A stretch of 64,000 bases of DNA from Thermoanaerobaculia bacterium (GTDB taxonomy: Bacteria > Acidobacteriota > Thermoanaerobaculia > Multivoradales > JAIOJS01): contig JAUIDB010000001.1 of NCBI GenBank assembly GCA_030429235.1, forward strand, positions 283,696 through 347,695, given 5' to 3'. Below, piece by piece: positions 41,166-42,938 of this stretch; position 1 is the first letter of the stretch; each line of letters opens with the position of its first letter. A model generated the notes under the pieces. It saw nothing but the letters and a program-made list of their open reading frames with translations. It did no database searches and had not been told where the DNA came from. A program made the position numbers and the translations under genes.

Positions 41166-41447
41166 GGGAGTTCGGGTCCGTACGGTGGTGAGCGGAGACT
41201 AGCGCGGTGCGCGTGCACCGTCGCGAAGGGTAACGGTCCTGTGGGGCGCGAGCCACTCGGCACTACGGGGTGCCGCGTCGTGAGGTTCCCGCCGCTCGAG
41301 CAGCGCAACCACTGGCTCGTGGTCGGCCTCGATTCGAGTGCCTCACAGCGGCTGTGGAGGCGTACGATAGACCCCAATCTCCGCGCAAGTCGAGGCCTTC
41401 AACCCAGCGCAGGTCTCGGCTTCGCTCGCACCATGGGAGGACGTTGC

Positions 41448-42125
41448 ATGGCTGGAAGTTCCGTCGAGTTCGATGCGCAGGTCCGGGGGTTTGTCTACCA
41501 GTGGTTCGTCGACACGGGAGCGGCGCCCCTTCGGGAGGAGGTCGCCCACGGTCTGGGAGTCGACGTCGGACGGGTCGCGGCGGCGTTCGATCGACTCGCC
41601 GCCGGCCGCGCCCTGGTGCTGCAGCCGGAGAGTGGCGAGGTCCTGATGGCCGAACCCTTCTCGGCCGTCCCCACCGCCTTCGAGGTGGCGTGCGGCGAGC
41701 GCAGGTACTGGGGCAACTGTATCTGGGACGCTCTGGGGATCCCGGCTCTGCTCGGGCTCGATGCCGAAGTCCGAACCAGTTGCCCCGACTGTGGAGAGAC
41801 GCTGACGCTCACGGTGGCCGACGGCGAGCTGATGCCGGCGTCCGGGGTCGTGCACTTCGCCTTGCCGGTGCGGCGTTGGTGGCACGACATCGTCTTCACG
41901 TGACGCACCATGCTCCTCTTCCGGTCGGAAGAACACGTCGAGCGCTGGTGTCAGACCTGGAGACTGCCTCGGGGTGAGGTGTTCTCCCTGGAGCAGCAGT
42001 GGGGCCTGGCCCAGGCCTGGTACCACGATCGCCTGGAGCCGGATTGGCGTCGCAAGACTCCGGACGAGGTCAGGACGGTGTTCGCCGGTCTCGGTCTGAC
42101 CTCTGGGTTCTGGGACCTCGATTGA
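41448..42125 (+). CDS. MerB-like protein with in-frame TGA at catalytic-Cys position: candidate selenoprotein
   Basis: Read through one TGA (41901-41903, codon 152) this gene encodes 225 residues, close to MerB length. Before the TGA the pattern NCIWDALGIPALLG aligns with the MerB stretch around Cys96 and Asp99 (here Cys91, Asp94). The TGA lies in IVFT-x-RTMLLFRSEEHV, where MerB has its second catalytic cysteine (Cys159). After it the frame continues with family-like sequence to 42125. A six-base stem with a GGTC loop starts 14 bases after the TGA, with its loop 19 bases away, within the range for bacterial SECIS elements. ATG 41448 follows GGAGG. Alternatives are a nonsense mutation or a base error (TGC to TGA). 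Function may be cleavage of a carbon-metal bond, but this is unproven. Confidence 0.75.
41904..41932 (+). promoter_or_regulatory. SECIS-like hairpin after the TGA
   Basis: TCTTCC (41917-41922), loop GGTC, GGAAGA (41927-41932) form a perfect six-base-pair stem. The loop begins 19 bases after the TGA. In the E. coli fdhF element a GGUCU loop begins 18 bases after its UGA, and guanines at the start of the loop are contacted by SelB. The same bases also encode LFRSEE, conserved in this protein family, so the fold could be incidental. Confidence 0.5.
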
Positions 42126-42170: not shown

Positions 42171-42938
42171 TCAGCCCGGGTCGTGCTCGTCCAGGAGGTT
42201 GGCCACGTTGAAGCACACCTCGCAGTCGCAGAATCCGCCGTGGCCGTTGAGGAACTGGTAGAGGGCGATGACGTCCACGCCCTGAGCCTCGGCCCACTGT
42301 CGGGAGAAGCGCAGGGTGTGTTCGCAGCCCGGCATTTCGCCCTCGGCGTCCGGGGTGTGGGCCGTGGTGTCGATGAACTCCAGCAGATCCGCCAGTTGGT
42401 TTCGATCGATCGATGCGGGGACCTCCTCCGTGGGCGGCGTGTAGGGTCGATCGGTCAGGGCACAGTAGTGCTCGAGGTTGTCCCAGCCGTGCGGCGCCAG
42501 CTCGTAGGCCAGCAGGTATTCGGCCGCCGCGGCGTTCCGCTCCCCGCGGGCGGCCAGCGCCTGGGCGATGACTTCGTGGCAGGGGGGCCAGGTGTAACCG
42601 CGCGCCAGGGCCTCGCGAGCCAGCGGTTCGGCCTCCTCGAGGCGGTCCTGTTGCGCCAGGACGGTGGACAGACCGGCGGTGGCTCCCGCCTCCTCCGGGT
42701 ACTCGTCCCGCAAGCGGCGGTAGTGGGCCTCAGCGGCCGCAATCTCCCCCTGGTCGGCTAACGCCACTGCGAGATTGAGCTGGGCGGGGAGAAAGTTGGG
42801 GTGGCTGGCTGTGACTTCGCGCAGCACCTCGAGCTGCTCTTCGGCCGAGACCCCCGGCAGCCAGAGTTCGGCCAGCGCGTCCTGGGTTTCGACGGGCAGC
42901 TCTTCGAAGCTCAGGGTTCGGTTGTCGTCGGCATCCAT
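42171..42938 (-). CDS. TPR protein with C-terminal DUF2695-like domain
   Basis: Cytoplasmic protein of 255 residues. Residues of about 30-160 are tetratricopeptide-like helices (LPAQLNLAVALADQGEIAAAEAHYRRL and following). The C-terminal 70 residues read CEHTLRFSRQWAEAQGVDVIALYQFL and GGFCDCEVCFNVAN, matching the DUF2695 pattern with its CDC motif. The extra cysteines (CDCEVC) could bind metal. A fusion of the two modules in one protein is less common. Function unknown. Confidence 0.8.
   Translation of the reverse strand: MDADDNRTLSFEELPVETQDALAELWLPGVSAEEQLEVLREVTASHPNFLPAQLNLAVALADQGEIAAAEAHYRRLRDEYPEEAGATAGLSTVLAQQDRLEEAEPLAREALARGYTWPPCHEVIAQALAARGERNAAAAEYLLAYELAPHGWDNLEHYCALTDRPYTPPTEEVPASIDRNQLADLLEFIDTTAHTPDAEGEMPGCEHTLRFSRQWAEAQGVDVIALYQFLNGHGGFCDCEVCFNVANLLDEHDPG

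Follow-up and report, generated by a model that had tools for sequence, protein, structure and literature searches.

The alkylmercury lyase MerB (PF03243; PDB 3f0o, 3f2f and 5c17) binds mercury through Cys96, Asp99 and Cys159, with Asp99 also responsible for proton handling (PMC4525700). Compared with thiolates, selenolates are tighter mercury ligands. One MerB-like selenoprotein, now named SaoL, is listed in reviews from 2022 and 2026; it carries the motif CU and belongs to the SAO operon. SaoL (NF040728) is a MerB-like organometallic lyase of the selenocysteine (Sec)-assisted organometallic (SAO) system (Haft and Gwadz 2023, as cited in PMC13188914). Reviews cite a 2008 GOS paper and a 2016 paper for a MerB-like selenoprotein, though MerB is not mentioned in the main text of either. 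A 2021 survey of mer genes listed no MerB in Acidobacteria (PMC8261052), as would be expected if an in-frame TGA shortens such genes in annotation.

We analyzed a gene in a 64,000-nucleotide stretch of DNA, hereafter the window. The features of the gene are summarized in Table 1. Its reading frame is interrupted only by a single TGA and ends at another. Cys91 and Asp94 lie within NCIWDALG, upstream of the in-frame TGA (residue 152), and the residues around this codon read FTURTMLLFRSEEHV when TGA is translated as Sec (U). The first-pass annotation, made from sequence alone, had described this frame, with Cys91 and Asp94 before the TGA and LLFRSEEHV after it, and a perfect six-pair stem with a GGTC loop 14 bases after the TGA. 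Both descriptions held, the stem starting at the 14th base, and the proposal of a candidate selenoprotein is strongly supported by comparison. By comparison, it is all but certain that the gene encodes a MerB (alkylmercury lyase) superfamily member containing Sec; the full reading, a selenoprotein with MerB-like metal chemistry, is very likely (probability about 0.93). This reading rests on comparative evidence, without peptide or selenium data.

Table 1 Positions of the Sec-containing gene and its parts in the window.
Feature	Positions	Strand	Evidence
Putative ribosome-binding site GGGAGGA	41435..41441	+	Seen in the sequence, 6 bases upstream of ATG
Sec-containing MerB-family gene, 225 residues including Sec152	41448..42125	+	Pfam, homologues, predicted fold
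N-terminal winged-helix-like domain, about residues 1-69	41448..41654	+	Predicted helices H5-23, H29-36 and H40-52; LexA/DtxR winged-helix matches over residues 3-70
Cys91 codon, aligned to MerB Cys96	41718..41720	+	Invariant, 80/80
Asp94 codon, aligned to MerB Asp99	41727..41729	+	Invariant, 80/80
In-frame TGA, selenocysteine 152, MerB Cys159 column	41901..41903	+	TGA in all 80 best homologues, Cys in canonical MerB
SECIS hairpin, stem 41917-41922/41927-41932, loop GGUC 41923-41926	41917..41932	+	Pairing and covariation, 90 sequences
Terminal TGA stop	42123..42125	+	Homologue ends coincide

The protein matched Pfam MerB over residues 71-192, a span that includes the TGA (1.3e-31; 109.6 bits against a gathering score of 27). 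A family profile searched against the PDB picked up MerB2 (5c17; 1.6e-22) and, more weakly, MerB (1e-11 to 1e-12). In the profile alignment, Cys91 and Asp94 fell on Cys96 and Asp99, and the TGA column fell under the second catalytic Cys of MerB, as the first-pass annotation had claimed. Sec thus sits at a metal-binding residue; the position assigned to it there is supported, and the chemistry itself is inferred. An AlphaFold2 model built from an 80-row alignment had a pLDDT of 96.9 and a pTM of 0.92. Comparison by VIA-align gave Z 18.6 over 190 residues with Hg-bound MerB2 and 14.8-15.4 with MerB crystal structures, whereas the next unrelated fold reached Z 5.6 in the winged helix only; Foldseek was concordant. 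Eight residues (L50, P70, C91, W93, D94, Sec152, F158 and R159) were invariant in all 80 homologue rows. Alignment and predicted fold show that the protein adopts the MerB fold and that Cys91, Asp94 and Sec152 occupy the positions of Cys96, Asp99 and Cys159.

The window protein resembles canonical MerB in fold, N-terminal domain and the positions of these three residues, but has Sec for Cys159 and is encoded outside a mer operon. It shares only about 20-27% of its residues with MerB proteins that have been studied biochemically. It missed the NCBIfam MerB equivalog cut-offs (52.7 vs 193 bits and 40.7 vs 200 bits), and the Cys96/Asp99/Cys159 signature, as used in PMC8261052, was unmet, as Cys91 and Asp94 are present and the third position is Sec.

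Matches were obtained in 29 of 197 searched relatives, and nearly all full-length homologues had exactly one in-frame TGA. After translation, the TGA fell in a single column, which held Cys in L024, L037, L040 and L042. We also scanned 84,980 species genomes and obtained 360 stretches encoding relatives, of which only the best 80 were kept and examined. All 80 had TGA at the Sec152 column. They came from about a dozen phyla, including Acidobacteriota, Chloroflexota, Gemmatimonadota, Actinomycetota, Calditrichota, Planctomycetota, Thermomicrobiota, Fidelibacterota, Verrucomicrobiota and Myxococcota; single assignments may be wrong because most homologue genomes are metagenome-assembled. The TGA column, both halves of the protein and the hairpin were conserved across about 100 homologues, so the arrangement did not arise by chance. 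The residue preceding Sec is Thr in the window protein, and T, N or A in nearly all homologues.

More distant homologues and plasmid MerB have Cys at the Sec column, as do the four named above and L157. The Cys homologues share the superfamily and domain layout of the window gene but differ in this residue, and the hairpin-forming FRSEE codons are mostly changed in them. In a tree of 122 rows, the Sec rows enclosed one Cys row, L024, which retains the CxxD motif and whose genome has selB. L024 could have reverted from Sec to Cys and lost the FRSEE codons of the hairpin. The other Cys homologues (L037, L040, L042 and L157) formed a separate CxxC clade with support of 100/99. In this clade, which also has Cys for Asp94, CxxC replaces CxxD and Cys stands at the 159 column, giving three cysteines and no Asp99. 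L157 is from a Paraburkholderia megaplasmid.

The window genome (4.85 Mb, estimated to be 100% complete) contained selA (439 bits), full-length selB (339 bits), selD (315 bits) and a tRNA-Sec that passed the Rfam cut-off with 72.9 bits and that ARAGORN identified as tRNA-SeC with the anticodon tca (UCA). Of 53 tested genomes with a homologue, 48 had a SelB match above the curated cut-off. The five TGA-carrying genomes without such a match were all draft assemblies, and draft incompleteness likely explains the missing SelB, although this is not proven. The tested genomes with Cys homologues also had selB; therefore, the Cys forms are not due to loss of the machinery. Neither of two refuting outcomes named in the first-pass annotation, a genome lacking Sec machinery and homologues with neither Cys nor Sec at the TGA column, was seen.

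The UGA and the GGUC loop of the hairpin are separated by 19 bases. The folding energy of the window hairpin alone was uninformative (z = -0.34 for a 45-base stretch), and covariation was therefore used as the test. The stem (columns 17-22 and 27-32) was paired in 97.2% of cells across 90 distinct sequences, beating every slid control. Both sides were changed in 13 stem cells, and 0 of 500 shuffles reached as high a value. The column pair 18-31 was C-G in 78 cases, G-C in 7, A-U in 2 and U-A in 2, and the pair 21-28 showed a change from C-G to U-A. The GGUC loop, with G at its first two positions, was nearly invariant.

Codon usage was also restricted in the hairpin. Arg was encoded by CGG in 90 of 91 cases, compared with 27% elsewhere in the same genes, Ser by TCG in 87 of 87 (33% elsewhere), and Glu by GAA in 76 of 90 (36% elsewhere). 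These near-frozen synonymous codons indicate that the conservation constraint acts on RNA; kinship inflates the counts, yet the pattern crosses phyla. Most Cys homologues lack the FRSEE codons and have FRDDA, FHRAA, FEDER or FREER, as expected if those codons are kept for the hairpin. The SECIS-like hairpin proposed initially thus behaves as a SECIS across homologues. Comparative evidence shows that it is a bacterial SECIS; this has not been shown biochemically.

The gene is flanked in the window by genes for a DUF998 protein (divergent), a TPR-DUF2695 protein (convergent) and a Cys/Met-metabolism PLP enzyme, and further neighbours encode DinB, GNAT, ECF sigma factor with DUF6596, and YCII proteins. 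The TPR protein (42171-42938, - strand) has a C-terminal DUF2695 and a cysteine-rich GGFCDCEVCF motif. No mer genes were found among the window neighbours by Pfam, and all-against-all blastp and Pfam analyses of the 80 homologue loci revealed no neighbour common beyond close relatives. PHROGs returned no match. Of 25 genomes, a single one had a MerA match above the curated cut-off. The gene therefore has no fixed companions, and its fold and active site are the only support for a mercury role. Outside the window, the same genome encodes two MerA-like flavoproteins (G000:C76:47921-49273 and G000:C86:70292-71653), which scored 396 and 346 bits, short of the curated 454 required for MerA. It is possible that they are partners of the Sec-MerB protein.

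A query with two TGAs was searched against 394 relatives and matched 27 genomes, some of which had the single-Sec gene only. About 14 near full-length proteins had one TGA at the Cys96 column ([GA]AU..D) and another at the Cys159 column (U..SVFFWSE). These double-Sec loci (L137-L152, e.g. L138:1873-1875 and 2098-2100, L145, L150 and L151; L153-L156 are partial) form one clade with support of 100/99, and the family matched Pfam MerB at 2.9e-13. The hairpin of the first TGA, CCCUU-CGUGC-AAGGG, starts about 21 bases after the TGA and is 100% paired, with one compensatory change (L150). That of the second, UUCUUCU-GGUC-AGAAGAA, has the same register as the window hairpin. Its closing pair changes from C-G (CGG TCG) in the single-Sec family to U-A (TGG TCA) in the double-Sec family, and the third base of the Ser codon switches in step with the Arg-to-Trp change on the opposite side of the stem.

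The double-Sec family shares PF03243, Sec at the Cys159 column, the hairpin position and genomes of the same phylum with the window gene, but differs in the additional Sec at the Cys96 column, the second hairpin and the separate clade. Because of long branches, the roots and deep joins of the tree are unsure, and so is where canonical MerB and the double-Sec clade attach with respect to the single-Sec family. From the TGA columns and hairpins, we regard the double-Sec relatives as candidate Sec-Asp-Sec enzymes with both catalytic cysteines replaced. To our knowledge, no other protein of the MerB fold has Sec as both metal ligands, and these relatives would be the first.

Comparative evidence, though not biochemistry, shows that the ribosome reads the UGA as Sec with the aid of tRNA-Sec and SelB, which the hairpin directs. 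Most likely, Sec152 and Cys91 would bind a soft metal carrying an organic group, and Asp94 would serve as the proton relay in breaking the bond between metal and carbon, by analogy with MerB. The selenolate would be ionized at neutral pH, and tighter binding of Hg(II) or a comparable soft metal would be expected from it. As no mer genes are nearby, the enzyme may act alone and hand the metal over to thiols of the cell or to some other carrier, not to a mer-operon MerA. MerB-type metal-carbon chemistry is likely, with the activity being inferred. Whether organomercury is the natural substrate is evenly balanced on present evidence, as this is inferred from the fold and active site without an enzyme assay.

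The best surviving alternative keeps the selenoprotein but not its role as an organomercurial lyase: the protein would act on another organyl compound of a soft metal or metalloid, by cleavage or by trapping, or would use the MerB fold, with a winged-helix N-terminal domain, for redox or metal sensing. It is supported by the absence of a mer operon nearby and by MerA below the cut-off in 24 of 25 genomes. In addition, MerB variants with altered metal preference have been described (PMC8261052), and the name of the system to which SaoL belongs refers to organometallic chemistry and does not single out mercury. However, the three positions of the MerB catalytic triad do not vary, and this points to MerB-like chemistry on any metal; the N-terminal domain is also present in canonical MerB. 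We take this alternative seriously but lean slightly against it.

It is very unlikely that the window protein is SaoL of the SAO system. Both are MerB-related and Sec-containing with presumed organometal chemistry, and the protein gave a weak match to the NCBIfam SaoL model, but its score was 35.4 bits against a cut-off of 140. Thr, Asn or Ala precedes Sec in the window family (TU, NU or AU), in contrast to CU in SaoL, although this contrast is one of motifs and not of a residue-level alignment of the Sec position. The window family consists of a single gene with unrelated neighbours in soil and sediment Acidobacteriota, Chloroflexota, Gemmatimonadota and others. We recognized no SAO-type operon or parts of a Sec-containing ABC transporter beside the window gene by Pfam, although the SAO models were not each searched. 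In 8 further genomes, no SaoL match exceeded the cut-off. The statement in the first-pass annotation that MerB-like selenoproteins had been proposed was right for SaoL, but the window protein is not SaoL. No NCBIfam model (June 2026) claims the window family or the double-Sec family, and neither was described in the literature searched, mostly without subscription papers; priority is not settled. The window gene thus belongs to a stand-alone Sec159-MerB family that is apparently undescribed, whereas MerB-like selenoproteins as such are already known.

Reading of the TGA as Trp by an altered code or a suppressor tRNA, which would open the frame, is all but excluded, as homologues have Cys and never Trp at this column, the gene itself terminates on TGA, tRNA-Sec (UCA), selA, selB and selD are present, and the SECIS is conserved. 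The single TGA alone makes the frame look interrupted, but a pseudogene with a nonsense mutation, or an error in sequencing, with the protein ending at residue 151, can also be practically ruled out, since the TGA recurs in about 100 homologues of about a dozen phyla, the downstream half is kept as protein and the hairpin as RNA, and an error is implausible given the same TGA in independent genomes.

On balance, we favour a bolder reading of the selenoprotein family, though without great confidence: soil and sediment bacteria of many phyla would hold a selenium-based MerB branch outside the mer operon, comprising a single-Sec (Cys-Asp-Sec) and a deeper double-Sec (Sec-Asp-Sec) family with a SECIS for each UGA, and acting on organometals in genomes mostly without MerA. 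Both Sec families would have been missed by standard annotation because the genes look truncated. Placement of Sec exactly at a metal-binding residue of a mercury-cleaving fold offers a direct and testable instance in which selenium would serve metal chemistry, not redox. The family is widespread and may alter estimates of which microbes are able to break down methylmercury or other organometals.
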